A program made the translations under genes and the position numbers. This document shows positions 16,723-37,900 of a stretch of DNA of 64,000 nt, in pieces. The stretch covers positions 5,432,967 through 5,496,966 of the forward strand of contig CM026423.1 in assembly GCA_014871385.1 (NCBI GenBank). Direction: 5' to 3'. How positions within the stretch are numbered: position 1 is the first letter of the stretch; each line of letters opens with the position of its first letter. This DNA is from Ceratodon purpureus. Taxonomy: Eukaryota > Streptophyta > Bryopsida > Pseudoditrichales > Ditrichaceae. The notes beneath the pieces were generated by a model. That model was not told where the DNA came from. It searched no databases and saw nothing but the letters and a program-made list of their open reading frames with translations.

Positions 16723-18193
16723 ATGGGCCTACCTATAGCTTTTCTGATGATATTTGTTTTGCAATCGGATTGCGCATGTTGCGGGCATGAGATTGGGTTG
16801 TGCATGAATTGGGCTTATCGATGTTCTGATCACCTCAATGGACCTCGTGTTGCAGTTCGCTTATCGGACCGAGGACTCCAGCAGAAGTTGTATGATCTTG
16901 TCAACCAGGAATCAGTGATCACCGCATCTCAATTCAAGAAATTGAAGTGGCAGCCAAAGCCAAAGGATCGACTCTTCATACCTCTTTGTCGTATGGTGTC
17001 ACTGCCGGTGGTTTGCCCTTTCCTGAAGAATGATGTGAACAACCTTGCTGCCCATTTTGTTAGGGATGGTTACATGGAGGGTAATGGATATTTTTATGTT
17101 GCCCTTGAAGACAACCATGGGCATACTTCAGAAGTCACCCCGGCTATCGAAGCCTCCTGGTCCAAGGAATAGAAGGAGGTTAATGACGACTTCGAGCAGA
17201 GCTTGCGCAAAGATGAGGACTTGCTGATATTTTCGAACAAGATGTTCATGGTCTGGGATGGTTACCGTAGGTGTCAGGCCTGGAAGCCGATTATTAAGGA
17301 GTATCATGCGGGAGATATCAATTGGCATTACAGGATGGAAAGTGTAATTCTCGATCCGAGAGGGGACGTACCCTCCGCCTTGACCGCGTTACACGAAGTT
17401 ACCTGGTGAGGGATCTTTGATTTTTAATCTTTGATATGATTTGTCTTCTTTTTTAGAGAGTGCTAATTAACCGGATTTTCTACATGTTCAGGAGGAATCA
17501 GAAATCGCATGTGTCAACTAATCTTGTCCTCAAACTGTACCGCGTCCAAAACATAGCTCCTTAGCCAATCTCTTACTTTGAGGGTCTAGTACCGCAGTCG
17601 GTTCTGGAAGCAACTAAGAAGAAACAGACCGGGAAGAAGAGGACTTGGTACACACTCTCTGTTGAAGCCTTATGCACAGTGCTTTATCAGGTATGCGCTC
17701 CTTAGCCGCGGCAATGCCTTTGATTGAATACCGTTTTATTATCGTGTTGAATAACTTTCACAATTTTGTGTGAATTTAGCAAGAGCTAGGAGAAGCCGCA
17801 CATGCTGCTCAGGAGAGATTTCAGATCAAACACCCAGACCTTGAGCAATGGACCGAGCGCTCTGCCGACGAGTGGGTTGCCTAGGCAGTTAAAGCAGTGG
17901 AGGACAAGCTTATTGGGGAGCTAAGGAAGTATTTGCCGGTTGCAGATCCAAAGCACACAACGGCGTTTCTGGAGGAGGTAAAACTACATTACGAAAAATT
18001 TGATAAGCCTAAGATGCAACAGGAGAAGCTCTGGATGTTGGCAACTTCGGCAATGCCCACGCCGATGATGATCAAGTGGCTCCAGAGGTGGAACTCTTCT
18101 CTAGCGATTTGGGATGCGTATAAGTTTCCGAAGCCTAACTTCGCCGACGTTGTATTTCCTCCATGGCTCCATAAGGCCACTTGGTAGGCTCAA
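16723..18193 (+). pseudogene. Spliced gene-like copy broken only by TAG codons; DGxR motif
   Basis: Three exons splice in phase: 16723-17405 (donor GTGAGG), 17492-17690 (acceptor TGTTCAG, donor GTATGC) and 17780-18193 (acceptor AATTTAG, donor GTAAGT). The coding frame holds throughout, but TAG interrupts it at 17170, 17572, 17882 and 18185. There are no frameshifts and no TAA or TGA. Exon 1 has FSNKMFMVWDGYRRCQAW, resembling the DGxxR signature of ParB/sulfiredoxin-fold proteins, followed by ESVILDPRGDVPSALTALHEV. Exon 3 has KLWMLATSAMPTPMMIKWLQ. The true 5' end is unclear because the frame runs back into the palindromic array. Function unknown; the ParB-like reading is tentative. Confidence 0.5.
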
Positions 18194-18345
18194 GTAAGTT
18201 ATTTCACTTCTTTTCAAGATTCAATTTACTGCCCCTCAAAACCACTGCCGTTGACGGCAGAGCTAAGGGGCAGAATGTCTGTGCTGTATGAGCGGTTGGC
18301 TTATGCGAGAGAGGGGCAGAATGTCTCTGCTGCTCCTTCGCCCGC

Positions 18346-19020
18346 ATGAACCCGAGGCTCATGCGGGTACCACTGGCCCCCACCCTTTGGCACTGCCCTA
18401 TCTGTAAACAAGGTCCCAGCCCTGATACATATTTGTGTCGATGGAATATTGAACGAGATGGTTTGTATGTTTCTCAGTTCCATCCTTTTAGCGGTAGACA
18501 TCAGTTTAAGCTATTTGGGCATTGGAAGGAGGACGAGGACCACCACGAACATCTGGCAGAGTATAGGGTGTCTATTTTTAATGATCTGGATGATGAATTA
18601 ATGCTTACATATGGAGTTGTAGATGGCACAAGGAAAACTGTGAAAGTTCCTAGACGCCTTCGAGTACATGTACCAGAACGTTTTTTTTCGAATATCCTTA
18701 AATCGACGCACCAATGAACATTTACTGAGTTCGACTTGGATATGCTATTTTAAAGACCTAGGGGCTATGGCTTATCGTAGAGATATTAAAAATATCGACA
18801 CCTCCTCTGCTAAACCACGTTTCAATGCCTATCGAGTGTATAGATTGCGCATGGAAAGCAGATAATGAAGGGATTTGGCTGTATCGAGTTGGATGTGGGC
18901 AAACCGGATCAATTTGGGAAAAACGATTTGACTGGGTTCCAATACGGAAGCGGACAAGAAAACCTGACGATGAAGATCAACCAGCAAAGCGTCCAAAACT
19001 ACAGCATACGGAACTTTGAA
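18346..19020 (+). pseudogene. Fragments of an unknown conserved domain
   Basis: A frame from 18346 to 18717 encodes CPICKQG, then WNIERDGLYVSQFHPF and EYRVSIFNDLDDELMLTYG. A second frame, 18825-19019, ends in a basic KRPKL-type stretch. The same domain, diverged, appears at 54754-55029 (EGVYVSQICHQ, EFSISIMNDLEYVVMITFG), which supports a real protein family. The fragments follow the TAG-interrupted copy at 16723-18193 and may be its 3' exons, but the joining exon is unclear and TGA and TAA stops interrupt it. A palindromic core, CACTGCCGTTGACGGCAG, sits just upstream at about 18243. I do not recognise the family. Confidence 0.4.
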
Positions 19021-19539
19021 ATTTTATGAGCTAGAGGCTTTTCTTATATATTAATTAAACGAAAAACGTTGACCATTTCATATTATTTTGATTCCTCTCA
19101 TTTTAAAATTATACTCAAAACACTCTTAGTAATAGTTCGTAAATATGAATACTTTAATTAATCTTTAAAGGTCGATAACCTCTTCCATGATACCAATCTC
19201 ATCTATTATTCTGAGACTCCCATAACTATTAGAAATTTCTTTAAATGTTAATCTTTTGTTTTCATAATACAAACATCATTTGTTCTCAGAAGAGACCCAT
19301 AACTATAAAAACTTACATAACAAAGAGTAATCTTTTTTTATAATTCCAAGCTCAGGTGTTATTCTTCGAAGAAACCCAGACACGAGGTCAGGCAAGAATA
19401 TCTGTCCTTGCTAAAAACACAAAGACAGGTTCTTTCCGCTACAATCCTCTGGAGTCCTTTACCGCATTCAAACACCCCACTAGTTGCCTATTTGTTAGAG
19501 TAATAATCCTTCGGGGGATATACAGTCCAACTCTTGTCG
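19021..19539. other. AT-rich spacer, no gene seen
   Basis: No coding or RNA feature is supported. The phrase 'agagacccataactat' and a related variant occur near 19215 and 19290, a weak internal repeat. Confidence 0.4.
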
Positions 19540-19880
19540 ATATCAAAACCAGCAATTTTCGCCATCCGATATGATCACTTCGGACAGCTGAACAACTGGA
19601 TTCTCAACGGCGGTGGAGGCCAAGGGATACGGGATAAGGGACTGGTCTATGATACGGAGAAGCTCATTGGTACAGAGCACTGTTCACCGCCATTCACCAT
19701 CACCAACATGGAGGCGTCCGATGTGCCTAAACGGCGGCAGGTCCATGCCTCGTTCCCTGGCCCGCTCCACCTCCACCAGCCAGGGCCGCAGCTCCTCATA
19801 ACTCGCCGGTGCCTTGGTGGCCAAACCCACAACGGCTCTCGTCGCATTACGCACCTTCTGCATTGCGCAAGACACTAAAT
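19540..19880 (-). pseudogene. GC-richer coding-looking fragment, unknown
   Basis: The reverse strand encodes a segment with VRNATRAVVGLATKAPASYE, then RPWLVEVERARERGMDLPPF and GRLHVGDGEWR. After an in-frame TGA the frame continues through CTNELLRIIDQ. Base composition is markedly more GC-rich than the surrounding DNA and the residue pattern looks protein-like, so this is probably an exon remnant. I do not recognise it. Confidence 0.3.
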
Positions 19881-20575
19881 TGTTGTTGTCTTAAAACGTT
19901 CCACGCAAGCTTGCACATTTACTTATCCAAACTCGTACGCTACCTTCGCATACAGCACAGAATGTTGGGGCTTGTGTCACTATCCTAATACGCCACCTAG
20001 AAACAAGCTCAAGAAACAAAGAATCGCCTCCTTCTGTGGAACCCAACTGCTGTTTCGTGATGAGAATCTCTTACTTGTATCACTCGAATGAAGAAGTTTC
20101 GCTGCGTAGGAAGACGGAGTAATCTTCGATGAAGACAAGGACTCTGACAAGGTATATCTTGGTTTCAGCAATTAAATTATTGTACACGAGCTTTGAAATA
20201 TTCCAGGAAGTTTTCAGACCTTGCCTCCTTCATGTTCTGTGAAATTTGTTTTTTCCTTTGTGCAATTACATAATTCTATGAAAGAATTATTTTTTTGATC
20301 TAAAACTCAACGCCTGATCATTGTATCTTGCCTAAACCCATGACAAATCTAACAAAATATATGCATGACGTCATCATGACATCAGCCCTAATTTATACCA
20401 TTTCATAGAAACGTAATAAACTGAAGTGATTTTAAACCAGAAATCCACGGAATTACACACTTTTTTCTTAAAAAAGTAACTACAAAAATGCCATATTTCC
20501 CTATTTTCCCGCGGTTATAGGGGTATTATTAGTATTGAAAATTTTGATAAAGGTAAATTCTGTGCTCGCCATTCT
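19881..20575. other. Spacer upstream of the retroelement
   Basis: AT-rich DNA with no supported gene. It leads into GCTCGCCGCTC-type repeats at 20580. Confidence 0.35.
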
Positions 20576-20579
20576 CTGC

Positions 20580-20635
20580 TCGCCGCTCTCCGCTCGCCGC
20601 TCGCAGCACGCATGGTAACTTCCCTCCTATCTACA
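20580..20635. repeat. GCGAGCGG module, inverted copy of 6893-6950
   Basis: This segment (CGCTCGCCGCTCGCAGCACG, then CATGGTAACTTCCCTCCT) is the reverse complement, with few changes, of 6893-6930 (AGGAGGGAGACTTG, then TATGCGTGCTGCGAGCGG). Both copies have short GC-rich repeats on one side and AT-rich DNA beyond. They lie about 13.7 kb apart in opposite orientation. They could be the ends or the shared promoter module of one element family. Confidence 0.6.
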
Positions 20636-20655
20636 ATAACGAACAGAAAACAAAC

Positions 20656-23600
20656 ATGTATCTGTATATAAACCCCCCGCAAGAAGAACTCCTCCTCTCT
20701 CACACTCACCAACCACCCCACACGGAGCTTCGCATGGTTGAGAAACTCTTTCCGTTTAGAATTAGATACCGAAAGTGGGAGAAGAGAATTCAGACCTGTC
20801 TTAGTGGAGTATCGGAGGTGTCAAAAGTCCATAGAAGAGTTGTAGCAGAGGCGCAAGCGAAGAGTGGGTCTGATGCTAGATTAGCAACGGAGGCAAAGAG
20901 CGCTGTGCAAGCGAAGAGGCTGGAGAGAAGAACCCTGTCGAGGAAGAGGGCTGGCTCAGAGAAGACTCGAGCCGGAGCTGCTGCAACAAGAACGAGGGCC
21001 AGAGGAGCGCCAAGGGTAGCCAGCGCGCCTGGATACGACGAAGGGGACCTCATCAGCAAAGGCGACCTTGAGGAGCAGGCGGTCCAAGCGGAGGAGCGGA
21101 AGACGGCAGCAAGCGACCAAGCAACATCGACAAAAGAGCAAGCAACGACGGCGGTAGAAGAGAAGACACCGGCCAGAGGACAAGCAGTCTCGGCGTGGGA
21201 GGCGACTCAAAGCCCGAAGAAGGAGGTTTTTGTGGCGACCAAGCCACTCTTGCAATCGGCAAAGGTGTGCTGGGTAGCGGCAGGCGCAGGCGCAAGAGCT
21301 AAGGCTGCATTCGTAGCCGCAGTAAAAGAAGTTAAGGCGCCGGAAAGCGAGCATACGCCCAAGGCAAAGGCGGAAGCGATAGTAGCAGAGGAGGCGGTAA
21401 CAGCGGGAGCTCCATCGGTAGCAGTGAAGAGCAGACCAGTTTCGGCGAGGGCCCCCACAGCAAAGGAGGTAACCTGTGGAGTAGAGACGCAGCCCAAGCC
21501 GAGCCAGAAAGCAGCAAAGTTGACAACAGCGCCCTGGAACGACGAAGGTCGGCAAGATTACTCAGGTTCTTTCTACTTTGTGATTTTCTACATGTATTGG
21601 AAGCAAACTCCAGCGAGAGATTGCTCTTGTATGTGCAACCGCACACTTAATGAAAAAAATTACTTTCTCCCTGCCACCAGCAGTGAGCTGGGGCAGGACC
21701 GTGTGGTCTCCTTAGGTAGGGTTTCTTGCCTTAGGAAATTAGAATGTATGCATATGCTGGGTGAACAAGCTGCGAGACCTAGGGCTCACAGCAAGTCTGT
21801 GATGCACCTAAGTCCGCAGCAAAGGAAACTCACCAGCTTCCGAAAAGTTGGAACCCTGGTCGGAATCCAGAAACTCTCACCCAACTCTATTTTATCCCCC
21901 TTTATGTTATATTGTTATGATGCTTCTTGTTTGAATATCCTCAAAATGTATTCAGTATGGAATGACTGTAGTATTAGAACTTTGTTAGATCATTATATGT
22001 TCAAATTGCAAGTTAGCAACTACAACCAGTTTGTAATTGCTAATGAACAAAATGATGTTTCTGCTAAAAAACCATTGTATGTATGTTTTACCCCTAGTAT
22101 GTTAGAAGATGTTTTGTACTCAAATAACTTCTTCTTTCCCTCTTATTTCCTGGTAGGCCCAGAACTTACTTTCTGGAATGGAATTAGAGGAAAGATGATA
22201 AGAAGTAAAACGCATTCAAAACTAAAGTACAAAACGTTTGTTTGCTTTGATTGTTTCAGAATGGCATCCAGCACTCCCACCTCCTCCTCTAGAAAATTGT
22301 TCGAAAATGATAAAGTTGATTCTGTGAATGGTAAACGTCCAGTCAATGCTATGGTAGTGTCAAGCCAGAAGAAGGTTAAGGGGACCGTATCTAGTGAGAT
22401 ACTACGCCCTCCCTACTGGCTTGGCTTTCAAGCCCTGAATTCAATTGCAAAGTTTGAAAATATGCCTTTTATCCAAACTCCCTCCTTCTCAAAGTTGGTC
22501 GAAAAAGGTATAAGAGAGTCTGAAGCACATGAAATGGTGGAGTCTTTCCCATCTTTCCCCTATGTTGTTCAAGAAGAATGGCCTTCACAACGGATGGATG
22601 GAAAAATGGGGATGCACTTCAACCTCACCCAGATTCCCTTAGATGTGGAAGTGGATGACCATGGATTTGCTCTAGACTATCATGTATCTATTCATTTCGA
22701 ACTTGACGGAAAAGATGTGGATAGGGATGAAGTTTTTGAGTTAACCAAGGCAAGGTTAATGGCAATGGGGATAGAGGTTGGTGACATTCTTGGGGAGCCT
22801 ATAGCAATCCTTTGCTTTCATGGGACCAAAAGATGGAGTGGGGTTATCAAACTCCATCTTAAAAACCCTGAAACGGATGGAAAAGGCCTTCTCCAAGGAT
22901 TGAGACCTTTCATCCTCAAAATTGGACGAACTACACCTATGTGGGGAAAAGTGTGTAAGTCGTTCGACACTATTGCCATTGCCTCAATGTTATCCGTCAA
23001 AATCACAACTCCAACAATCAAAGGAAAAGAATGGTATGTGTTATATCAAGAAATAGTAGAGGATGGATTCCGTCGGAAACATGAGTTTGAGATAACGAAT
23101 GTGCAAAAATCGGTGGATGTGGAGTATGCTTGGATCAAAGCACCCTCCCCAGAGGAAGCCAAAAGATTTAAGGAGCACAAACTTTCGTTCTTCAATGAAA
23201 TTGTGGATGTGAATTTTGCAAGAAACAACAAAATGTCGGAGGATGACAAGGCTAGAAAGAATGCAGTCATCCTCATTGCCCGTAACCTCAACAAAGTAAA
23301 AACAACCATGCAAATAGAGGAGGCAATCCGTAAATGCATGGGGGAAGGTAATGTCCTTGGTTTTTACTTTAGGCTAGAGAATGGGAAACATACGGGATCT
23401 TGCAATGTCCAATGCCTCAACTCATTTGTTTACAAAAAATATGTTAAGAAAAATGAAAAAATATTAGGGAAATATGTAGAATTTACCCCGCATCCAAAGA
23501 GTCTTGATGGAGTCAATGCACCTAGTAAGGAGGAACTTGTGAGGTTGGGATTTACGGATGTTACCACCGCAATTGCCAACACTATTACAGCCTTAGAAAA

Positions 23601-23880
23601 CGGACCACATCAATCGTCCTCCAACAAGGATTTGAACAAGATGGTTGAAGAGGCGGTAAAGAAGGGGACGGATGAAATTCGTAAGGAAATGGTAAGTATG
23701 AAAAGTGAGATTGTACAAGAGGCAAAAGTATATGCGGACCATGTGCAAATGGAAGCAAACAAGAACTCGAAGCTCCAAATGAAACTTCTTCAAAATCAAA
23801 TGAAGAAAACTTTGGATGCAATTGAAGCGGCAAATCCGGAGATTTCGGAGATTGATGGAAACATGGACACGACAAACTAG
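20656..23880 (+). CDS. Retroelement ORF1-like protein with RRM-like fold and coiled coil
   Basis: An uninterrupted frame of 1074 codons ends at TAG 23878-23880. Three starts are possible: 20656, 20734 (after the TATA box), or 22261, which directly follows an excellent acceptor (TTTGATTGTTTCAG) and gives a 539-residue protein. Residues 30-300 are Ala/Glu/Lys/Arg-rich low complexity. Residues 310-535 are atypical and may be an intron that happens to be open. From about 536 the protein looks conserved. Residues 868-950 show an RRM-like order (NAVILIARNLN, a helix, VLGFYFRLENG, then KYVEFTPHP). Residues 990-1060 form a charged heptad-like coiled coil. RRM plus coiled coil is the usual make-up of LINE ORF1 RNA chaperones. 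It lies 259 bp upstream of ORF2, but its base composition differs sharply from ORF2, so common ownership is inferred, not proven. Confidence 0.6.
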   Translation: MYLYINPPQEELLLSHTHQPPHTELRMVEKLFPFRIRYRKWEKRIQTCLSGVSEVSKVHRRVVAEAQAKSGSDARLATEAKSAVQAKRLERRTLSRKRAGSEKTRAGAAATRTRARGAPRVASAPGYDEGDLISKGDLEEQAVQAEERKTAASDQATSTKEQATTAVEEKTPARGQAVSAWEATQSPKKEVFVATKPLLQSAKVCWVAAGAGARAKAAFVAAVKEVKAPESEHTPKAKAEAIVAEEAVTAGAPSVAVKSRPVSARAPTAKEVTCGVETQPKPSQKAAKLTTAPWNDEGRQDYSGSFYFVIFYMYWKQTPARDCSCMCNRTLNEKNYFLPATSSELGQDRVVSLGRVSCLRKLECMHMLGEQAARPRAHSKSVMHLSPQQRKLTSFRKVGTLVGIQKLSPNSILSPFMLYCYDASCLNILKMYSVWNDCSIRTLLDHYMFKLQVSNYNQFVIANEQNDVSAKKPLYVCFTPSMLEDVLYSNNFFFPSYFLVGPELTFWNGIRGKMIRSKTHSKLKYKTFVCFDCFRMASSTPTSSSRKLFENDKVDSVNGKRPVNAMVVSSQKKVKGTVSSEILRPPYWLGFQALNSIAKFENMPFIQTPSFSKLVEKGIRESEAHEMVESFPSFPYVVQEEWPSQRMDGKMGMHFNLTQIPLDVEVDDHGFALDYHVSIHFELDGKDVDRDEVFELTKARLMAMGIEVGDILGEPIAILCFHGTKRWSGVIKLHLKNPETDGKGLLQGLRPFILKIGRTTPMWGKVCKSFDTIAIASMLSVKITTPTIKGKEWYVLYQEIVEDGFRRKHEFEITNVQKSVDVEYAWIKAPSPEEAKRFKEHKLSFFNEIVDVNFARNNKMSEDDKARKNAVILIARNLNKVKTTMQIEEAIRKCMGEGNVLGFYFRLENGKHTGSCNVQCLNSFVYKKYVKKNEKILGKYVEFTPHPKSLDGVNAPSKEELVRLGFTDVTTAIANTITALENGPHQSSSNKDLNKMVEEAVKKGTDEIRKEMVSMKSEIVQEAKVYADHVQMEANKNSKLQMKLLQNQMKKTLDAIEAANPEISEIDGNMDTTN
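20665..20672 (+). promoter_or_regulatory. TATA box candidate for the retroelement ORF1 transcript
   Basis: TATATAAA at 20665-20672 is followed about 30 bp later by a C/T-rich stretch (cctcctctctcacactcacc) typical of plant transcription start regions. The first ATG after that is at 20734 (MVEKLF). If this promoter is used, the ATG at 20656 lies upstream of the transcript and 20734 is the better start. Confidence 0.4.
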
Positions 23881-23917
23881 TTTTGACAAACATCCCGCCG
23901 GCTCATAATACTAAGCT

Positions 23918-24139
23918 ATTTATAGTATATTTTTATACTAAATTTAACAAAAACCTATTTATAGTATTAATAAATACTATAAATAAAAACTTATTTATAG
24001 TATTAATAAATACTAAAAATAGAAACCTTTTAATAGTATTAAAAATACTAAAAATAAAAACCTTTTTATAGTATTAAAAAATACTAAAAATAAAAACCTT
24101 TTTATAGTATTAATAAATACTAAAAATAAAAAACTATTT
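23918..24139 (+). repeat. Tandem ~35-bp AT hairpin repeats between ORF1 and ORF2
   Basis: The spacer consists of about six degenerate units of the form 'tttatagtattaataaata' followed by 'ctaaaaataaaaacc'. Several units are self-complementary (ATTTATAGTATT paired with AATACTATAAAT around an AATA loop). They lie exactly between the ORF1 stop and the ORF2 ATG, where they could affect reinitiation or internal entry of ribosomes. That role is inference. Confidence 0.65.
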
Positions 24140-27100
24140 ATGGTATCAAAAAACACTACAAATAATAACAAACTTTTTATAATATCTACCAAATATAAAC
24201 TATTATTTATAGTATCAAGAATTTCTAAAAATACATCCACAAAAATATTAACTATAAATAAGCATCCAAAAATAAGTTCAACAGACTCTAAAAACAGATC
24301 TCTTTCTGCAGCTTTAATTAGAACAATCAACAAAAAACTATACCTGGTAATTATTGATACTAAAGTCAAAAATCAAAACTCACAACACACTTACACAATT
24401 CTTATAAAAGATATTATAAACATGTCTCAAAAAAACTCTAACAACCATATAAAACACTTTCGAGCCATTTTAGTTAAAAAGAAAAAATCCACTCTTATCT
24501 TCCAAACATACCATCTAACAAAACAAACTACAAAAACAAACAAAATGGCCTCGGCCTACCGGCCTCGCCACAAATTAAAACAAAACAAAAACCAAAATAG
24601 ACACAACACGCTATTACTAATAAAAAACATCAAACTCAAAAACCAAAAAACATCTAAAAATATTCTAAATTTACATATAACACTAACAAACATTAAAAAC
24701 AAACACCTATACACCACACTAACAAATCCAAAAAATACGAAAAAATCACCACTTACTCATTTTCAACACCTACAACACACTGTAAATAAAATAAAAAATC
24801 AAATAAACAAACTAATAAAACAAACCATAGAAACCAACAAACCGGCCTCGGCCTACCGGCCTCGCCATAAAACAAAAAACAACAAAAATCAGCACATATA
24901 CAATTGGTACGCATCTACTACCACTAGTCATACATCAAAACACACCGAATCATCACACTATCTACCAGAACAAACAGTAAAAACAATACCCGCTTTACCC
25001 AATTTGTTTACTACAATTAAATTTACAACTATAAAATACTACAAAACAAATAAGAAAAAACCCAAATTACTATACTACTCTGGTTATTACTTTATCAACA
25101 AACTAGCACTACTTCAATGTGGCGATATAGAAACCAACCCTGGACCAATGCCCAACATATTACGTACACACCCCACAGATCATAAAAAACGTGCCAGAAA
25201 ATACTTTATCTCTAGTACAATAAAACTCCAACCAGATTACCAACACATAGCAATAAACTTTGCTCCTATTTTACATACAGACCATCCACTACATCATCAA
25301 ACAACTATCTCATTCCCATCCCTCCACCAATACATACAAAAACAAAATCACTCACCACCCTCTCACATACTATACGCACTAATCGTTACCATAAACCCAT
25401 CAATAGATAAATGTAATACTATCCTATCAAACCCCCGAGTATACCACTTCAACGATATATGGACAAACACAGTACTCATCCGACTTGCCAATCTCAACAA
25501 CCCCCCAGAAAGACACATCTCTACAGACCATCCGTACACCAAACTCATCAAAAGTATCCAAGAATTAATACTTCCAAAAAAATCAATACACAAAGAATTA
25601 TACGAATTCATTCATAGTCAAGAAACCCCTCCCACACACGACATACTTCAAAGAAAATTCCCATTTCTCCCAAACAAATTAATAACAGAATCACTTCGAT
25701 GTCTCGAAAACATTCACGAATACTCACATCCACCCCCACTCCCAAACACCCCCACACCAGTACCAAGAATAATTCCTACTACAAACCTAGACACTAACAT
25801 AATCACTTGGAATGCATCATCACTTAATACAGCCTTACCAAACCTACAAAGTCTCATAAATAACTCCATTGAAAATACAGCAATTATTAATATTCAAGAA
25901 ACAAAACTCACAGCGACAAAATCTACAAAATACATACAAAATCTATTCCCTGAATACAAACTTATCTTCAACAACACCCATGCCTTAACAAGATGCATAC
26001 AACAAAGAATGCCCTATAAACCGGGAAGAGGAGGATTACTCACACTTATTCACAACAAATATGCATTCCCCGGTAACATTACTAAAGTTCCGACCCCAGC
26101 AAATATATCCCCATATCTACAAACAATAAAAATAAACAACCACCCACTTATACCTTGGCTAATTATCCACATGTACATGCCTACACATCTGGAAGACATA
26201 CGTCTCATTCCCCACCTCAAAACTACCATCACTAACCAAATTTCTGCACATCCAAACCACACGTACATCCTATGTGGAGACTTTAATCGTGACATCGCAC
26301 TCATTGGCAGACAAAATCACAACAATAACACACCACCACAAGATGAAGACATCCAATGGAAAAACTTCACCACATCTCTTAATTTCGAATACATTCCAAC
26401 AAACACTAACTTTTCCAGACAAGGCGGCTATAACTATACATCAACCAGCCTCATAGATGGCTTCTACATAAACTCAGCAAATAACAACAGATTTACTTCC
26501 ACCACAAATATAAATATGAATTTAAACTCAGACCATTACCCAATTACATTACATATCCCACAAAATACATTACTAGCTAGACCCCCACCGCCAGTAACTA
26601 CCACTGAAATCAGAATACTTAATCCAATTCCAGAAGAAAATTTAGAAAAATTTAACATAGAATTCTTTGAAAAAAACTCTATAAAAATAAATGAATTAAC
26701 TCTACTCTTAGAAAACCAAGACCACCTCACACAAGATCAATGGCAAACAGCCTGCACATCCCTAGATGAAATTATAAACAAAATCTCAGAAACTATTGAA
26801 AACACCTGTAAAGCACCACCATTACCAAATCTCACTAATAGGACCGCACAACAAGGCGGTTTCTTACCCCGAAAACTTGCCAAGGAATGGAAAAAACACC
26901 TTGCTACATACCATCTCATAAGAAAAACTATATACATCGCAAAACACAACCCACAATGGCAGACACACCCTATCATGAATGAAATACGGAACCATCAAAA
27001 TGTACAAATTCCTCACCCGCCAATAATAGACACCATACCAAACGAATGGATTGACGTCATAGCTGCTATCGCAAAAACTGCCAACAAAGAAGCTAGAAAA

Positions 27101-30100
27101 ATTACTACAAAATACACTAAAGATTGTATTCACAAAGCAGTCTCAAAATACCGCCAAATGTATGAAAAAAGCCCCAAGAAAATAAATAGAAAAGTCTTCA
27201 AAAATTCTGAAACCTCACCCCTCGACTCTATCATTGACAGACAAAATAATATTCTAACTAGCCCTGAAGATATTGCACAAGAAATACACATTCAACAATC
27301 TATCAGTAATCGCCCAACAGTTCCCACATGCCACTATCAAAATATTCATCAACCACACTGCACATGCAGTGTCAGACAATACCCATGGCACGACTTAGAA
27401 GGATTCACAATTGACCAACGCGGTGAACCGGAAATCCCATTACAAACATACTTTGATCAAGAGACCTACGACTTCTGCCTTAAAAACCTAGGAAATAACA
27501 AAGCCCCAGGCCCTGACAAAATCCCCAACTCAATCTTGAAAAACATGCCTCCGCGATTCCACAAATTACTCTTCCTATTCTTCAAACATTGCTACAAACA
27601 AAAACAAATCCCAGCATCATGGAAAACTAGCCTAACTGTTTTATTATATAAAAAAGGTGACCCATTCCAATTAACCAACCATAGACCTATTGCACTAGCA
27701 AACACAATTTACAAACTTTTTACAAGTACATTAACTTCTATCCTTTCCGCCTATGGTGAAAAACACCAAATATTACACGACAGCCAAGAAGGATTTAGAG
27801 CAGAACGAGGAACTTCCAGACAACTTCAAATCCTCATTGCAGCACTAGAAGATGCGAGATTCACAAACCAAGACATATACATTTTATATATAGACTTCAA
27901 AAATGCCTTCGGCTCTATCGATCATGCAAGACTCCTAGCCATTATGAAAGACCTTGGATACCCTTCTGATGCTATAAATCTAGTCGGTAACATATATTCA
28001 CAATCCTCCACCATATATTCTGGAGAACACTTTGGCAAAACTCTACCGATTCCCATTCAAAGAGGAACAATACAAGGAGATACACTCAGCCCCTATTTAT
28101 TTATAATATTTTTAGAACCTCTTCTGAGATGGCTACAACAAGGAGACAATGGTTACACCTTTGGCACCTCCAAAGTTACAATCTCCTCCGCAGCATACGC
28201 TGATGATCTTGCAGCAATTGCCAACAAACTAAAATCCCTACAAACTCAACTAAATAAATTAGATAAATTCTGTGAATGGGCAGGAATGGACCTCGGAATC
28301 TCTAAGTGTGCAGTGACAGGATGCCCCAACAAATCCAAAATGAACCCAATTGCATTCAAAGCCCAAATACAAGCCACCAACATAAACTTTAGAAACCAAC
28401 CACTACCAGTTCTAGACCAACATGAACCATACACATATCTTGGCATAAACTTGGCCCCATCTCTAAAATGGGGAACACAAATAAACACCACCACCGCTAA
28501 AGTCGTCAAACAATGTCAAGCCTTAGTATCTTGCCCAGCCACTATGAAACAAAAAATCAGTATGGCGGATACAGTGATACGCGCCGGAATAGCATACAGC
28601 TTTTACGCAGTACCATATTCCATACCAGCCATTAAAAAACTAGACAAAAAAATCATAGCGCTCCACAAAACAATCTGTGGATTACCAAAATGCACCTCTA
28701 ACGTCGCCACACAACTCCCACACAACCTATTTGGTATCGAAGCATTCTCACTAAAAAATGCGTACTTAAGATGCATTGGAGAACAACTTCAAAATGCCCT
28801 TAACGATAAAGGTAGACTTGGTAAAATATACTACGGATTGATACAATTTATACTTGCAAGATTTGGAGGCTCCGAAGAAATAGACCGTATTAAATACCAA
28901 CACTGTGTGAGATCACCCATCACTAGGACATTATTTCTACTCAAACATGAAGCCGGTGTCCATCTTAAAAGTACAATAAATTGCTTTCTATTAAAACCAT
29001 CCCAACTAGAAACGGCATGGATGAGAGAAGCACAAAACCTACATGGCCTTAATCCCAGCACATCCTTCAAATTACTACAAAAACTACTATCACACAATAT
29101 AATAAAACTAGAACAAATAACCATGCCTAATGGCACCACCCTAATGAACTCAGATGACTTTAAAATATACCACTGCAATCCCACAAAACTCATCAAAAGT
29201 ACTCTAAACCTTGCAAACCAACTATTTTGCTACCCCTCTTGTCACCACGGATGCCACCCTCCATGCCGGTTTCATCACCCCCCAAGAACTCTTAAAAATG
29301 ACTACATTATATTAAACCACAATATCCTCCCCTTACAACCTACCCCCCCTATAAATCCACCTAACCCTCATATCCCCGAACTCCCCCTTCCTCCCAAAAA
29401 CATACTTAAGAATCCTCGACAATTCCCCATTCACGAAATACTAAATCATGAACATCGTAAAATCAAGGATAAATACCAGATTATAAAAAAAGACACCATA
29501 TACTTATGCCAATGGAACACACCAAACAACAACTCATACCACAAATGGCGAACTCAAAGAGAATTATTTCCCTGGAACGACCCCCACACATGTCAGCACA
29601 ACACTGAAATACTTATCCAATACTATACAAAACAACAACATAAACATTGTTCAGACACCATAAAAAAATACTTCTCTATCACACAAGCAAAAGATACAAG
29701 GTATGTTATCCCAGCCACAACCATCCCATTAGTTCACATATCTATTAATGAATGTAACCCAGAAAGCGACATTCAAACAAATACAAACACAATACAAATA
29801 AACTTAAACGTAGCACATATATACGAAGAAAATGGCCGACACCTCATCACCATCCCAAAAACACGATTAATATGGCTATGGAAACAATATCAAAATGCGA
29901 GAAATACCCCACATGACCTTGAACCTCCAACCCAATCTTTTGAAACCGAAATTGCATGGCTATACCAAAGATATAAATACCGCATCCCGAAAAATGACCC
30001 ACTTAAATGTGCCCAATACACCATACCAACTCAAATACTAGACTTTCTCATTGATACATTCAAAATTCAAACATCATACTTCTCATCCCCAGTTACATGC

Positions 30101-32176
30101 CCCACACAATTTAGCCAATTCCACTCACCATTTCCCCGAGATATTATTTTTGGTTCCCTAGGAAAAGCATTTGATCACAAATGGAAAGGTATTGGATACG
30201 CCCATCCACATAATGAAACAGACTTACAACAAGCCATCCATTGGGCTCGTCTTGCAGCAAAAAACGATCCAAACACAATGACTATAATCATCTCTCCAGA
30301 CACTAACTGGTACCAAAATTTCAATCCACACATTGGCCCCTTTCCAGATACACACATTATTGCTCACTTCGCTGCAGATACCATCACATATATAGAACCC
30401 ACAATACCCCCCGACATCAACATTGAAAGAAAAGAAGTGTCCACTCTACAAATACTTTGCATTCATCACCAAAACAACAACATCGGTAACCAAGAACAAA
30501 TGAATCAACTCAATCCCATCATAAATAACCTAAAAATCCCACAGATTTACACACAAATTGCCCCTCCTACCCCTTTAAACACCTTGGTCAAACCTAGTAA
30601 GAAATGGTCGAAATTAGACTACCCTAATACACTAACAAATAGCCCCACACATATCCTCCCAATCCCAAACTACCATACAAACCTGCCGCTAAAATTCGAA
30701 GCCCAACTTAGTTATTACACCGATGGCTCCTTCATACCTCCAAAAGAAATTGGCCCCAATAATGAATGGATGAGGGAAAAAGCTGGATATGGTATCTACA
30801 GCCCTAAAGGTATTAATATCCCCAAAAGACTCCATGGACACCAAAACATTCTACGAGCTGAAATGATGGCTATACACGAAACACTAAAAATCATCAACAC
30901 ACAATTCCCTAATGAACCCGCATATATATTTACTGACTGCCTAAACGTACTATATTTACTAAACACGCAAATTAAACACCCCACACTACACAACAGTCAC
31001 CCCGACCAAACCACACTTGCCTCCATGGTTGAACTACTCCAACAAAGAATACAACCCATTTCTCTACACAAAGTCAAAGCACACATCAACATTGATGGTA
31101 ACGAAAAAGCAGATAAACTAGCAAAAATCGGAGTCGATCTAGAATATATAACTGCCGAACACCCATACGAACACGCGCATGCCACCCCATACTACTACCA
31201 AAAAGATGTGTGGCCATCCATGATAGATATGCCAGACAAAGGACCAGTTAGAGACCTAGAAAAACAAATCAAGAAATACGACAGGGAAAAAAACTTAGAA
31301 GTTATGGCCGTACAAACTCCCAATATCTACAAATGGACAGCAAATGAAGATATAGACAATGAACTCTCTAATGAATTCTGGAAAAATCCAATCATTACAG
31401 ACAAACAAAAAACATGCCTTATTAAATTCCGTACTGGAACATACATGGGCCATGCTAGAAAACAAATGTTCTTTGGAAGAGAAAGATTTCCATCCATCAC
31501 ATGTCCCATTTGTAGATCACATGAACCGGACACATGGTTACATGTGTTACTCACATGCCAACAACAACACATACATTCACTCCGCGTCAAAAGACACAAC
31601 AAAGCAGTTTGGGAAATCCGTAAACTACTAATCTCATCAGAAAAATCCCGATGCTTCATTCTCATGAATGCTGGAACCTTCAATGATAAGCCTCCAGAAA
31701 ACACCGTACCAAATTGGCTACTCCCTTGCACATGTGGCACACAAAGATGCCACTGTAACTCGAGATTTAGGCCAGACATCTTATGTGTGAAAGGCCTACC
31801 TTACCAAAGCGAACCCCCTTCCGAAATTAACCCCAACCTTACAATACAATTTATTGAATTTACATATTGCAATGACAGATTCTCCCCAGAAACACTCCAA
31901 GCCAAAACCAACAAATACAATCCACTAATCGCTAATATCACTGCTCTTGGATGGAAAGTTGACCCTCTTATCGTCATTACAGCCGGCGCCAGAGCAACTA
32001 CACACATTCCATCAATGAAATCACTTGAAGAAAAATTCCAAATACCAATGCCCACCATCAAAAACACCTTCAAAAATATAAATACTATCGCCATACAATA
32101 CGCCATGTCCATTCTACTCCACAAAAGAAGAATAGAAAACCACCAACCGATTCCTCAAAATTTAGATCCCCCTTAA
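24140..32176 (+). CDS. LINE ORF2 polyprotein: 2A, APE endonuclease, RT, RNase H, CCHC, RLE-like
   Basis: One frame of 2678 codons ends in TAA TAA. Residues 1-335 are basic and low complexity. Residues 327-336 are CGDIETNPGP, a 2A ribosome-skipping motif, predicting release of a 335-residue leader. APE domain about 553-802: W557/N558, E587 (IQETKL), D714/N716 (CGDFN), D773 (LIDGF), D798/H799 (SDHYPI). RT about 1115-1400: NNKAPGPDKIP, D1252 (DFKNAF), QGDTLSPYLF, YADD with D1355/D1356. A Cys/His-rich cluster follows near 1695. RNase H about 2190-2330: D2195 (YTDGS), E2241, D2266, H2315 (KAH), D2325. C-terminus: CCHC finger C2455-C2458-H2468-C2473 (CPIC...H...C), then RPD with D2546, E2573 (IEFTY) and K2589/K2592-Y2593 (AKTNKY), matching the restriction-like endonuclease of R2-type elements. 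It would nick target DNA and reverse transcribe element RNA in the nucleus. All key residues are present. Confidence 0.9.
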   Translation: MVSKNTTNNNKLFIISTKYKLLFIVSRISKNTSTKILTINKHPKISSTDSKNRSLSAALIRTINKKLYLVIIDTKVKNQNSQHTYTILIKDIINMSQKNSNNHIKHFRAILVKKKKSTLIFQTYHLTKQTTKTNKMASAYRPRHKLKQNKNQNRHNTLLLIKNIKLKNQKTSKNILNLHITLTNIKNKHLYTTLTNPKNTKKSPLTHFQHLQHTVNKIKNQINKLIKQTIETNKPASAYRPRHKTKNNKNQHIYNWYASTTTSHTSKHTESSHYLPEQTVKTIPALPNLFTTIKFTTIKYYKTNKKKPKLLYYSGYYFINKLALLQCGDIETNPGPMPNILRTHPTDHKKRARKYFISSTIKLQPDYQHIAINFAPILHTDHPLHHQTTISFPSLHQYIQKQNHSPPSHILYALIVTINPSIDKCNTILSNPRVYHFNDIWTNTVLIRLANLNNPPERHISTDHPYTKLIKSIQELILPKKSIHKELYEFIHSQETPPTHDILQRKFPFLPNKLITESLRCLENIHEYSHPPPLPNTPTPVPRIIPTTNLDTNIITWNASSLNTALPNLQSLINNSIENTAIINIQETKLTATKSTKYIQNLFPEYKLIFNNTHALTRCIQQRMPYKPGRGGLLTLIHNKYAFPGNITKVPTPANISPYLQTIKINNHPLIPWLIIHMYMPTHLEDIRLIPHLKTTITNQISAHPNHTYILCGDFNRDIALIGRQNHNNNTPPQDEDIQWKNFTTSLNFEYIPTNTNFSRQGGYNYTSTSLIDGFYINSANNNRFTSTTNINMNLNSDHYPITLHIPQNTLLARPPPPVTTTEIRILNPIPEENLEKFNIEFFEKNSIKINELTLLLENQDHLTQDQWQTACTSLDEIINKISETIENTCKAPPLPNLTNRTAQQGGFLPRKLAKEWKKHLATYHLIRKTIYIAKHNPQWQTHPIMNEIRNHQNVQIPHPPIIDTIPNEWIDVIAAIAKTANKEARKITTKYTKDCIHKAVSKYRQMYEKSPKKINRKVFKNSETSPLDSIIDRQNNILTSPEDIAQEIHIQQSISNRPTVPTCHYQNIHQPHCTCSVRQYPWHDLEGFTIDQRGEPEIPLQTYFDQETYDFCLKNLGNNKAPGPDKIPNSILKNMPPRFHKLLFLFFKHCYKQKQIPASWKTSLTVLLYKKGDPFQLTNHRPIALANTIYKLFTSTLTSILSAYGEKHQILHDSQEGFRAERGTSRQLQILIAALEDARFTNQDIYILYIDFKNAFGSIDHARLLAIMKDLGYPSDAINLVGNIYSQSSTIYSGEHFGKTLPIPIQRGTIQGDTLSPYLFIIFLEPLLRWLQQGDNGYTFGTSKVTISSAAYADDLAAIANKLKSLQTQLNKLDKFCEWAGMDLGISKCAVTGCPNKSKMNPIAFKAQIQATNINFRNQPLPVLDQHEPYTYLGINLAPSLKWGTQINTTTAKVVKQCQALVSCPATMKQKISMADTVIRAGIAYSFYAVPYSIPAIKKLDKKIIALHKTICGLPKCTSNVATQLPHNLFGIEAFSLKNAYLRCIGEQLQNALNDKGRLGKIYYGLIQFILARFGGSEEIDRIKYQHCVRSPITRTLFLLKHEAGVHLKSTINCFLLKPSQLETAWMREAQNLHGLNPSTSFKLLQKLLSHNIIKLEQITMPNGTTLMNSDDFKIYHCNPTKLIKSTLNLANQLFCYPSCHHGCHPPCRFHHPPRTLKNDYIILNHNILPLQPTPPINPPNPHIPELPLPPKNILKNPRQFPIHEILNHEHRKIKDKYQIIKKDTIYLCQWNTPNNNSYHKWRTQRELFPWNDPHTCQHNTEILIQYYTKQQHKHCSDTIKKYFSITQAKDTRYVIPATTIPLVHISINECNPESDIQTNTNTIQINLNVAHIYEENGRHLITIPKTRLIWLWKQYQNARNTPHDLEPPTQSFETEIAWLYQRYKYRIPKNDPLKCAQYTIPTQILDFLIDTFKIQTSYFSSPVTCPTQFSQFHSPFPRDIIFGSLGKAFDHKWKGIGYAHPHNETDLQQAIHWARLAAKNDPNTMTIIISPDTNWYQNFNPHIGPFPDTHIIAHFAADTITYIEPTIPPDINIERKEVSTLQILCIHHQNNNIGNQEQMNQLNPIINNLKIPQIYTQIAPPTPLNTLVKPSKKWSKLDYPNTLTNSPTHILPIPNYHTNLPLKFEAQLSYYTDGSFIPPKEIGPNNEWMREKAGYGIYSPKGINIPKRLHGHQNILRAEMMAIHETLKIINTQFPNEPAYIFTDCLNVLYLLNTQIKHPTLHNSHPDQTTLASMVELLQQRIQPISLHKVKAHINIDGNEKADKLAKIGVDLEYITAEHPYEHAHATPYYYQKDVWPSMIDMPDKGPVRDLEKQIKKYDREKNLEVMAVQTPNIYKWTANEDIDNELSNEFWKNPIITDKQKTCLIKFRTGTYMGHARKQMFFGRERFPSITCPICRSHEPDTWLHVLLTCQQQHIHSLRVKRHNKAVWEIRKLLISSEKSRCFILMNAGTFNDKPPENTVPNWLLPCTCGTQRCHCNSRFRPDILCVKGLPYQSEPPSEINPNLTIQFIEFTYCNDRFSPETLQAKTNKYNPLIANITALGWKVDPLIVITAGARATTHIPSMKSLEEKFQIPMPTIKNTFKNINTIAIQYAMSILLHKRRIENHQPIPQNLDPP
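24545..24870 (+). repeat. Duplicated GC-rich motif encoding ASAYRPRHK in the ORF2 leader
   Basis: The nucleotide motif GGCCTCGGCCTACCGGCCTC occurs at about 24549 and 24845 in the same frame and encodes ASAYRPRHK (residues 137-145 and 236-244). Both copies are followed by similar A-rich DNA, so they derive from an internal duplication of about 297 bp. In a leader that is otherwise almost free of G, conservation of these GC blocks at the base level is striking. Confidence 0.8.
25118..25147 (+). other. 2A-like ribosome-skipping site within ORF2
   Basis: The codons for CGDIETNPGP (residues 327-336) match the D(V/I)ExNPGP consensus with the leucine-rich lead-in LALLQ. Skipping occurs between the final Gly (335) and Pro (336). 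Here the proline codon (25145-25147) is immediately followed by ATG. Known examples outside viruses occur in non-LTR retrotransposons of trypanosomes and sea urchins. The site would separate the basic leader from the enzymatic protein. Confidence 0.88.
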
Positions 32177-32341
32177 TAAAAACTCTGAAACAAAAATAAA
32201 AATAAATTTTTTGATAGTAGCCAGAGCTACTTTATTTAATTGTTAGCATACAGGTGTCAAGTCTCTTCTTGTCACTTCTCGCAAAGGGGGGCTGTTGGCT
32301 GGCACAACTTATTTCCTGCTCGTGATCACTCACTTAGCAGT

Positions 32342-32456
32342 ATCAAGCCACTCCATCCCCCACATCCACTCAAACGAGTCCATCAGGGTTCGAACCCGGA
32401 CCAGATTAATGAGACAAACGCTCACATCCAACCAACAAATGAGCTCGTGGCTTGAT
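32342..32456 (-). ncRNA. tRNA-like (SINE-type) sequence near the retroelement 3' end
   Basis: Read on the minus strand, ATCAAGCCAC and GTGGCTTGAT (32447-32456 and 32342-32351) form a perfect 10-bp closing stem. Inside are a tRNA D-arm-like A box (GAGCTCATTTGTTGGTTGG, about 32428-32446) and a perfect B box, GGGTTCGAACCC (32386-32397), about 40 bp apart. This fits the tRNA-derived head of a plant SINE rather than a functional tRNA, because the cloverleaf is not canonical. It lies about 170 bp after ORF2 in opposite orientation. Confidence 0.5.
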
Positions 32457-32569
32457 GTCCGTAACATCACCACAAACTTCTCTATACACCTATTTTCACT
32501 AGTTTCTTGTTTCTGGTTACTTGTGACTAAAGTGTCTACTCTCGAAAGGGGGGAGTAGATCTTTACTTC

Positions 32570-33880
32570 CATACCTTTGTCCTGTGGGCTTTGGATTGGG
32601 GGTAGGTCGAACAGACACTTAATTCACGTCGGTCTCCTCCGGAGACCGAAGTTTCTCTCTCTCTCTACTAAATACTATGAAAATAAGGAGATTTGGATAT
32701 TAAAGATAAAATTTTATCTTGGAACTCAATTTTTCTATATAGAAGAAAAGAAATCTTAAAGAGGCAAAGTCAATTCATTTTTTTATCCCATTTAGATACT
32801 TATCTATAATATTTTTAAGTAAAAAGTATTTCAAACCCCCTCGTGGTTACATAGGCTCATTCTAAATCAATACTAGGAATAATCCAATCCACCATCCTAC
32901 CAAAAATAAAGAGTATACAAGAAGCCAATCGATCAACATTTTTCTCCTAAAGAACAGATTCTAGTGACAATCTTAACTATTTCAATGTCAATCTCTTGCT
33001 CAACTTTTGAACCTTTACAATTTATGGTATTTCTATACTCCAACATGGAATAATTCCACCTCCCCACACCCCCACGAGCCCATATTTGGTTTTAGAGATA
33101 TATACACATCTATAATAGTTTTGAACCCCCAACACTCACGTACCTAGAACACATGATGATTTCACTACCACATTTAGGGTCAATTACAATATAAGGTTTC
33201 TATGACACCCAAGTCACCTTGCATTGTTATGCACTGCACACAAAGACCAAGGCACTTGTGGTACCAAAGGTGTAGCTCCAAAATAAGTGCATTGAAGATA
33301 AGGTAGGCCCATTCAAACAACAATTGATAAATTCGAATCTTCAAACAGGACCTGGACACAGCAGCGTTCTAAAACATTGTACAAGTATATTGTAATATGC
33401 AAAAAAGAAATAGGTCCACACAGAAGATTCCGTTATCTCATGATCAGGAATCACGACAGAGGACCTACCATGCTCAATGGATAAAATCCAATTACAGTCT
33501 GAAAATAATATGTATTCGTTGCTGAACGTCCAGTAACTGGTTCACTTCGTAACAGGGCTAGTGTTTAAAAAGATTTAAAGCCCAATTTGCCACATAAAGT
33601 AGTACTAAAAAATATTCTGCAAAATTTGTACCTTATTACCGTAATTTATTACAAAGTGTTTTGATCTAATTCATGCCTACATATAGAAGTTAGCTAACAA
33701 CTCTCAAGATAAACCCTTCAATTTGAAGCTTTGAGATTTTATCAACAGCTACATATCACTATTTTGTGGTGCCTCGAGTCGTGCACACCTCCAAAGCATC
33801 ATACAATACCCACAATATTATCAGTGCTCATGAACGAGCCGAGGTGTGAATGCAAGTAACGAGATTGATTACAAGTATGG
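32570..33880. other. Spacer between retroelement and SIN3-like gene
   Basis: AT-rich sequence with a CT microsatellite at about 32652-32666. No gene, RNA or clear repeat is supported. Confidence 0.4.
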
Positions 33881-34968: not shown

Positions 34969-37900
34969 TCACTTTCCCAGATGTACCAACCTATCGTTGG
35001 AGATTCCCGCTTGCCGGTTCACCCATTCACCAAATAAGCAATGCTTTAACTCCCGCTGTTCATGGACAGGTCGTCTGTTACGTCTGTTACGTCTGTAAAA
35101 CAGGTCCTCAGTGTCCAAAACATACGATACTTTGGAAGTATGACAGGAAAATTTGTTCTCAAGCCCGTTTTCAACAATCGCATCCCGCATAGCATTTTGA
35201 AGTGCCTCATCCTCATCTTCCCCACCGTACTTCCGGTTTTTGTTCCTCATTAAGAAGACTCGATTATTCTTCATTGTCGGCACTGACTTTGTAAAGTCAT
35301 CCAAATACTTCTGAAATGGGCTTCCTGAAGCATGACTTGAAACGTCCTGTTTTTCAGAATTCTCCATCAGTTGTATCAGCAACTCGCCAGTACTTGACCT
35401 TTGCTCGAATCGATACATGCTCTCATCATGCAATAACACACAAGTGTTCACATAGTAAACCGGATCAACAGCTTCACGCCCGTATTCATATGAATTCAGA
35501 TGTAGTAGCTTCTGAACCCCATCATCAGTAGCTGCCGCTTGTAGTTGCTTCACCAGTTTAAAGATAAGCTTGTCCAAGGTGAACAGAACATATGATTGAG
35601 TACCTATGATGGCCCTGCACTCGTCCTCAAACTTCGAGTTGTCCAGAGAACCGTCCAGTAATCCGTATAGCACCTGCACGAACCTTGAATACAGGTTGGG
35701 AGCAGCCCCGCCATCACTGCTCTTCTTTTTAGATGCCTGCTCTGCGTGTACCTTTGCAGATAGAATGCGCTCATAGAGTATTTGGTAGAGCCTGTAAAGA
35801 CATGGAAATTGTATTAGACTCCAAAGAAACAGACTGAATGAACTTAACAAGAAATCTGCAGGAAGACGATCAGCCAGTTCCAAGAGCCCTTACTTGGCCA
35901 GCATAAACAATAAAAGAGAAGATAGAATAAGCTCACAATAGAAAAGAAAACATGTCAAAGAATCTAACTATGATTCGTAATACTCGCAAGGCAATATTAA
36001 CTGAGCAATTAGGATACAGAGGAGCATAAATTGAACCTGAAGAGGATATATAACATGTCATTCCCATAAAATATTCTTCCTGCCTCCCCCAAAGTTCCGT
36101 CAGATATAGGATACACTGCAAGTGGCTTGCAATGGGCGTACGAAGATTCTGGGTTTGTCAATGAGGAGTTGCCATCCTCATCCCCCTCATCAGCATCCGC
36201 CATACCCTCCGCTTCCCCTTCGCTTTCTAACTTCTCTTCCTGCTCGTCTTCTTCTTCGTCATGCTCTGACTGCTCATCACTAGACTGCTCACTCGCGGAA
36301 GATTCATCAGCAACTTCGGAGGGATTGTCACTATCCTCGCTTGACTTCTGAGCACTCACTTCCCCTTTGTCATTCGCATCTGCATCATAAAAAAATGGAC
36401 TTAAGAACAAGAATGAAACAGTTGTAAAACTGAAATATTAGCTTTTACTTGATTAAAATATTTCGGAAAAGGCAATGTCTAAATTGATGAGTAAACTATA
36501 CTATGACCAAAAGATGTTTTCGTTTTTAGTAGATAAACAGAATTTCATTAAACTTTATGAAAAAAAAGGAAACCTGATTTATAAACTACTGGATAAAATT
36601 GAAATATATTTCAAGATTCTGGATGAAGTTTTCAATCCAAAATAGTGAACACAGGACCCGTAAAAGGCTAGACCACTGCTAAACTTCAACGTGATCTAAA
36701 TAACGCATCTTCTGAAGCAAACAATGCTTTCTTTGCTCAATAAAGTTGCATTGTGGGCCTTCGCCAAACAATCAACTGATATGGTATTCAGCAAATGTTC
36801 ACTCAGTTATTCATTCAACAATATATAAAATTATAGGTCAACTCATGAAAGACCATCATACCTTGATCGTGATCCATTTCGACAGCACCTACACCTTCAG
36901 CATCTTCCTCTCCCTGAACCAACAACTCAGCCGCGCAATTTTCTTCTACTTCCCCAACTGAATTATATTCAACCTTCTTTCGATCCTCCGGTTCAGAAGT
37001 GGGCGACAGCTCTCCTTCCTCTCGCTCTGCTGTTCCAAGACCCCCACTTCCATCTCCATCCATAACTACACCAGCACTCGACCTAACTTCCGTCTCGGCT
37101 CTTTCACCAGCCACGCTACTCTGCTTCGCACCATTGTTCTCGTCATGAAACCACCCAGACCCTTCCGTTCGTGCAGCAGTCCCATCTGCAGCTTCCGATC
37201 CCAAACCCCTCACGGACACTTCATTGGTACCATCACTACCCTGCTCACAAACAGCAGGGCCTGCGTTTTCAGCACTTGAAGTATCCCTTACATTTTCCTC
37301 ATCGTCACGCACCCTTACCTGAGCATCTCCGGCTCCACCCCTCGTCTCACCCCTGGTCTCACCCCCGTCTAAAACCACGCCCTCAACGGCCCTAACCACA
37401 GCAACCTCTCCCTCGCTGCCCAACACACCACCCTCGGGACTGCTCATCTCATCCCCTTCACTACCACCACCACTTTCCCCAACGATCCCATCTGTGCCTT
37501 TACCCTCTAATGCCTCCAACTTCACGGCCTCCTCCGAATCCACTGCACCATGTAGACATGGAGATATTCCCAGAATAAACTCCTGAAAATTTTTCAACGA
37601 CCGCATGATTTTCTCCGTGTGGTCCGGCGAGCTGCTAATCTCCTCCGACGAGTACTTGATGATCTCGTAGATGTCGTCGTGGATCGATGCATCTCCGAAC
37701 TTGTACCGCAAGTCCGGCATCAGAGGCCTCCGATTGCCAGCTGCGATCGCCAGCATTGTGTCATCCTCCCTCCTCCTCGTATCATTCAACTCTTTGATCT
37801 CTGACAGCAACCACTTCGTACTCAGAGTTTTCTTGTCCTGCTGTCTGAAGTAGAAACTCCGGTGATCCAGGGCCTTGTACACATTCTTCGTGTAAACCTC

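Follow-up and report, generated by a model that had tools for sequence, protein, structure and literature searches.

R2 elements, long interspersed nuclear elements (LINEs) that insert into 28S rDNA, are not known to possess an apurinic/apyrimidinic endonuclease (APE) or an RNase H, whilst in the type family of the Dualen/RandI elements a cysteine protease is an accessory trait. Dualen/RandI elements are defined by the presence of both an APE and a restriction-like endonuclease (RLE) in one protein (PMC4640811, PMC3636483), and elements with both nucleases are known from Chlamydomonas and its relatives (PMC4640811, PMC3636483, PMC8226300). Here we analysed a stretch of 64,000 nucleotides from the genome of the moss Ceratodon purpureus (hereafter the window; positions 5432967-5496966 of contig CM026423.1, our C3), in which an initial annotation had described the frame at 24140-32176 as the second open reading frame (ORF2) of a LINE with both nucleases. 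We consider it very probable that this frame is ORF2 of a Dualen-type LINE that is full-length and present in many copies, carries APE and RLE and resides in the moss genome. As five other copies match from window position 21458 on, the element spans no less than 11.2 kb; the limits first proposed were thus correct for ORF2, but are not those of the whole element. Likewise, the two nucleases, the reverse transcriptase (RT) and the RNase H had been recognized, but ORF1, a 2A motif, a PCIF1-like domain and the ends of the element had been missed (Table 1).

The frame proved intact over its predicted 2678 codons, and its motifs lay at the residues assigned to them: E587 (within IQETK, 585), CGDFN (712), LIDGF (771) and SDHYP (797), then YADD (1353), and towards the C terminus a finger (C2455-C2458-H2468-C2473), RPD (2544-2546), E2573 and K2589 (within QAKTNKY, 2587). 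Pfam recovered RVT_1 in the whole protein (E-value 5e-28, residues 1172-1438), as well as RNase_H when that part was scanned alone (2.7e-13). Against the PDB, window ORF2 by itself matched R2 as its sole hit (1e-31 to 2e-18), and in profile comparisons of the RT R2 scored 223-157 bits, above LINE-1 at 129-127 bits. A tree was built from 40 RT sequences, comprising 36 of the 157 proteins P0001-P0157, three of five R2 pieces from the PDB and one mammalian L1. In it the window fell within a group of 35 rows (support 100/100), amongst APE- and RLE-bearing elements and apart from R2, L1 and a turtle protein (P0157) that stood nearest to R2; the named members of this group are elements of Haematococcus lacustris, Pleodorina starrii and Parachlorella kessleri. 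The RT phylogeny proposed as a check in the initial annotation thus came out in its favour, although with fewer references than proposed there. The tree lacks an outgroup, has a very long L1 branch and contains as references three R2, one R2-like and one L1 sequence (none from the I, RTE or CR1 clades, and no Repbase Dualen sequence as a direct anchor), so that it bears on the grouping of the window rather than on the order of the LINE groups.

Significant PDB matches of the C-terminal alignment were R2 proteins only (2e-12 to 3e-4), the first unrelated match following at 0.73, and R2 chains took the top seven places when a confident structural model of this region was compared. Within the 43 alignment rows in which the RLE was matched, that of the window among them, the column of D2546 held D in 38/38 and that of E2573 held E in 36/37 (lettered positions only), so the motifs are no product of chance. 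Amongst 29 other copies from the same genome, D2546, E2573 and K2589 were retained wherever the alignment reached them (28/28, 26/26 and 23/23, respectively). Among 156 relatives fetched, 41 extended 1050 aa beyond the RT, 39 of them with an RLE; a search with the C terminus alone gave 301 candidates, none of which scored. At the other end of the protein, the APE motif residues were retained in all four copies compared, window included, whilst a further stretch that was fetched (L068) had no APE frame. A profile of the four copies matched exonuclease III and LINE-1-type endonucleases weakly (best 0.0079), ahead of an unrelated Rhs protein (0.7). The N-terminal APE and C-terminal RLE hence reside in the same protein, as in Dualen/RandI. 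Overall, the R2-only profile matches, the R2-like fold and the separate RT group support the proposed Dualen-like lineage, and the moss host agrees with its placement in a land plant.

Searches of the genome (362.5 Mb, 151 contigs) returned copy counts that are lower bounds. The PF12237 profile, which detects the PCIF1-like domain, gave 277 candidates, of which 150 were scored, every one above the cut-off; 16 of these 150, counted by hand and including the window, lay in frames of more than 2500 aa. Using the 3' end of the window copy as query yielded 1388 first-look candidates and the PCIF1-like DNA 339, the best 40 of each being 92-100 % identical (for the 3' end, the window among them). All 39 other copies amongst the best 40 of the 1388 terminated within window positions 32662-32673, at most 12 positions apart, and the unique flank of the window copy starts at 32667. 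In the 29 of these that were analysed as loci, the tail was GAAGTTT(CT)n with small variants, and the flank after it differed each time. Four of these loci (L032, L033, L037 and L045) contained a 5' truncation point within the locus, and target duplications of 10 bp, 11 bp and ∼36 bp bordered the first three, each including one T that the tail might equally supply; L045 had none above 7 bp. Target-primed reverse transcription by the element is thus shown indirectly, by the constant 3' ends together with the 5' truncations and the target duplications. We also considered (CT)n as the target site, but this gained no support, because the sequence preceding the duplication is not (CT)n in any of the three copies with a duplication. 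The 5' end of the element lies upstream of 21458, since the five copies share diverged sequence there, and a possible 3' splice site was read by eye near 22140 (acceptor-like TTTCCTGGTAG, followed by GCC). Separately, the 5' region of the element contains a long GC-rich, Ala-rich open frame (20557-22260), and the matching region of other copies shows internal repeats and strong divergence.

To gauge selection we used NG86 estimates of dN/dS. For the first pair of elements (L013 with L066 versus L015 with L067, joined per element by position), values were 0.15 before the APE, 0.07 in the APE, 0.02 in the RT thumb, 0.13 in the following linker, 0.06 in the PCIF1-like domain, 0.40 in the next linker, 0.07 in the RNase H and 0.04 in the finger and RLE front (residues 2400-2540, ahead of the catalytic residues). 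From the RT thumb onwards, the second pair (L018/L019) gave 0.05, 0.15, 0.19, 0.32, 0.07 and 0.05 for the same segments; in the remaining pairs dS was largely saturated. Considering the whole RLE, the frame was unbroken in 19 of the 29 copies and pooled pN/pS against the window was 0.06, in a set where intact copies are favoured because copies were selected for good matches. Both nucleases thus appear to be maintained by selection, and the PCIF1-like domain appears to be likewise preserved by evolution.

Such an element would encode two proteins, one from each ORF, with the 2A motif of ORF2, judging by its sequence, probably making the ribosome release a Lys/Asn/Thr-rich leader of 336 residues from an enzyme of 2342 residues. 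This enzyme, by the indirect evidence above, copies the element RNA into DNA at a nicked target, and the two nucleases would share the nicking, one of them opening the strand used for priming and the other the opposite strand. The CCHC-RLE module would, by analogy with R2, also hold DNA or RNA, the RNase H would remove the template as is expected of its family, and the PCIF1-like domain would bind nucleic acid, perhaps the element RNA near its 5' end. A single nuclease might instead make all nicks, the other (most likely the RLE) persisting as a DNA- or RNA-binding module. In keeping with this, K occupies the catalytic Lys column in only 21 of 34 lettered rows, the other 13 having a different residue, and insertions look scattered, although most RLE elements are target specific (PMC4640811). 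The retention of all three catalytic residues in every same-genome copy that reaches them, and of D and E across nearly all aligned relatives, argues against it, and we regard this alternative as possible but rather unlikely.

A number of observations nevertheless weigh against a Dualen-kind element in which both nucleases are selected. Exo_endo_phos fell just below its cut-off on the window protein (22.7 versus 24.5 bits; E-value 1e-4), and the PCIF1-like domain was no more constrained than the preceding linker in the L018/L019 pair. The RLE frame was broken or truncated in 10 of the 29 copies, and since A occupies 11 of the 34 lettered rows of the Lys column (by eye mostly in Haematococcus), some relatives may have a defective RLE. 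For the window copy itself, no target duplication was found (no shared word of ≥ 10 bp within 17001-22200), nor was its own 5' end found by upstream comparison. Finally, the target duplications of the other copies, at ∼10, 11 and 36 bp with none above 7 bp in the fourth, fail to distinguish APE from RLE.

The domain between the RT and the RNase H matched PCIF1_WW (PF12237) above the cut-off in the whole-protein Pfam scan (E-value 4e-11, residues 1926-2054). Its fold matches residues 417-668 of PCIF1/CAPAM, the cap-specific adenosine N6-methyltransferase, and thus the Rossmann methyltransferase fold, including the FASPLN stretch, which lies within the PCIF1 active-site loop F479-P494 according to the excerpted literature. 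In contrast to PCIF1, the window protein has HPHN in place of the catalytic NPPF and its domain is embedded in a retrotransposon. Within the part of ORF2 that was modelled, from residue 1843 on, the match begins at PCIF1 residue 417 and no helical m7G-cap-binding domain was seen. An active adenosine N6-methyltransferase that marks the RNA or DNA of the element is improbable. The eight other same-genome places read (L013-L020) have HPHN, HPHT, HTHN, HPPN or HPPD at this position, so that with the window the catalytic Asn is replaced by His and the Phe by Asn, Thr or Asp in 9/9 (L016 and L017 being alike), and NPPF was absent there across the 64-row alignment (∼57 rows lettered). Moreover, mutation of NPPF inactivates PCIF1, and an F-to-H change in fly PCIF1 accompanies absence of the mark (PMC10544176, PMC9479742). 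The match to PCIF1, in the modelled part, also leaves out the cap-binding domain. We infer instead a former methyltransferase that is here without its catalytic Asn and Phe and is still selected, most likely binding nucleic acid. More tentatively, and with the odds somewhat against it, a PCIF1-derived domain may be ancestral to the whole two-nuclease LINE group and recognize element RNA by its capped or 5' end, thereby directing the RT and the two nucleases to full-length transcripts; it might then still methylate in some lineages and be a selected pseudoenzyme in mosses.

An artefact of assembly, or an APE-type and an R2-type element joined by chance or nested one in the other, is favoured by the rarity of the combination and by nothing else found, and can be rejected with near certainty given that RT and RLE occur together in the 39 long relatives noted above (also in L002, from another source) and that long frames recur in 16 of the 150 genomic PF12237 matches. 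Equally negligible is an ordinary, L1-like LINE with an APE only and a finger merely resembling that of R2, which would suit the N-terminal APE and scattered insertion sites, but is opposed by the RT and RLE profiles and rejected by the fold comparison.

Upstream of ORF2, ORF1 had no Pfam match. We had suspected a neighbouring element here from the differing base composition; this was ruled out by a homologous frame 5' of ORF2 in all five other copies fetched for that test, with homology beginning near 22124-22155, and by dN/dS values of 0.06-0.15 (four unsaturated pairs). ORF1 belongs to the element and not to a neighbour. As a separate matter, strand asymmetry is extreme at 24001-26000, in ORF2 (GC skew -0.61, AT skew +0.33), with a GC skew of +0.09 at 22001-24000, mostly in ORF1. 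Odon and colleagues are said to have reported, in 2013, 2A sequences in APE-type elements; the motif in the window likewise precedes the APE, but sits in an element with APE and RLE. It fits the expanded StopGo motif (D/G/C/N)(V/I)ExNPGP (PMC12846837), as do the 2A sequences of APE-type LINEs. GDIESNPGP stood at this position in all three further same-genome copies in which the frame was read here. The pattern recurred in 18 of the 45 proteins, the window's among them, in which ≥ 780 aa precede the RT, whilst shuffling the window protein 20000 times produced it once.

Compared with Dualen/RandI of Chlamydomonas, the element shares the two nucleases in one protein and an RNase H, and its RT groups with algal elements, whilst its host is a moss. 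No cysteine protease was detected by Pfam in residues 1-545 of ORF2, a search that can miss diverged ones; relatives, in contrast, carry OTU, C48 or PF02099 domains, the last of which we take to be Josephin. From R2 (R2Bm, R2Tg and R2Pm), which is RLE-only and specific for 28S rDNA, it differs by its APE, its RNase H and its scattered insertions, the flanks differing amongst the copies read. Within the excerpted literature searched, neither a 2A motif nor a PCIF1-like domain was mentioned for Dualen/RandI, no PCIF1-like domain was reported in a retrotransposon (including PMC8868631 and PMC7824862), and no land-plant Dualen was found; Repbase, which may well contain one, lay outside this search. 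Elements with two nucleases bear on how LINEs switched between nicking enzymes, and a land-plant case with many copies and both nucleases selected makes the strand cut by each enzyme testable in a plant. Through its PCIF1-like domain, the element also connects LINE mobility with a family of mRNA-cap enzymes, a connection not described in the literature searched.

Table 1. Coordinates of the element and its parts (window positions; residues are those of ORF2)
Feature	Position	Strand	Basis
5' UTR (at least)	21458..22260	+	five other copies match from 21458; share diverged sequence further upstream
ORF1, 539 aa (MASSTPTSS...)	22261..23880	+	homologous frames in other copies
36-bp tandem array, 6.2 copies	23949..24169	+	between ORF1 and ORF2; matched in 4/5 other copies
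ORF2, 2678 codons	24140..32176	+	open frame; stop to stop 24023-32176
2A/StopGo motif DIETNPGP, residues 329-336	25124..25147	+	fits (D/G/C/N)(V/I)ExNPGP
APE, residues 553-815 (N558, E587, D714, N716, D773, D798, H799)	25796..26584	+	Pfam, motifs, copies
RT, residues 1110-1560 (YADD 1353)	27467..28819	+	Pfam, PDB match, RT tree
PCIF1/CAPAM-like methyltransferase-fold domain, residues 1881-2131	29780..30532	+	Pfam, profile, structure model
HPHN, residues 2022-2025, where PCIF1 has catalytic NPPF	30203..30214	+	motif, alignment
RNase H, residues 2189-2331	30704..31132	+	RNase_H Pfam match, region scanned alone
CCHC finger, residues 2455-2473	31502..31558	+	motif, alignment, R2 profile match
RLE, PD-(D/E)XK core D2546, E2573, K2589, ∼residues 2476-2667	31565..32140	+	alignment, profile, fold
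3' UTR	32177..32654	+	terminal short inverted repeat GGTCTCC/GGAGACC, then GAAGTTT
(CT)n tail	32655..32666	+	(CT)n length varies among copies read; flanks differ

A chromodomain suggested by eye at residues ∼1762-1860 of ORF2 gained no support from Pfam or PDB profiles and was discarded. Scanning viral contigs with the RT alignment gave 61 pattern matches, none of them a relative, and a search of the same contigs for LINE outgroups by DNA pattern returned one L1 (L004), one degenerate CR1-like piece (L007) and otherwise unrelated sequences. The former, which is the L1 of the RT tree, occupies the start of an IMG/VR 'viral' contig (L004:2-3562), where an unrelated enzyme-like stretch is fused to a mammalian-looking L1 ORF2 piece, and the contig is probably chimeric. 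Three records of bacterial metagenome-assembled genomes, labelled Mollicutes and Clostridiales (isolates B1Sed10; L001, L002 and L003), are most likely eukaryotic and misbinned, because they contain Dualen-like LINE sequence. One of these, L002, holds a frame of 3038 aa with RT, PCIF1-like and RLE matches, the APE and RNase H being seen by eye. A PHD finger is present in some relatives, namely P0029, P0089 and P0114 (PF00628) and, by eye, L002, where it lies between the RT and the PCIF1-like domain; the window has just a short Cys/His-rich patch at 29228-29278. Proteases of the ubiquitin/SUMO type (C48, OTU, PF02099) differ amongst P0002, P0005, P0009, P0012 and other Haematococcus proteins, those that could be placed preceding the APE, and this variety looks like repeated exchange. 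Elsewhere in the window, a hAT-type transposase (61162-63900; DUF659, weak BED and Dimer_Tnp_hAT) is split into two adjoining frames parted by a stop, and pieces of a SIN3-type co-repressor gene (PAH, Sin3_corepress and Sin3a_C) lie on the minus strand at 34969-40101, placing the LINE downstream of that gene.
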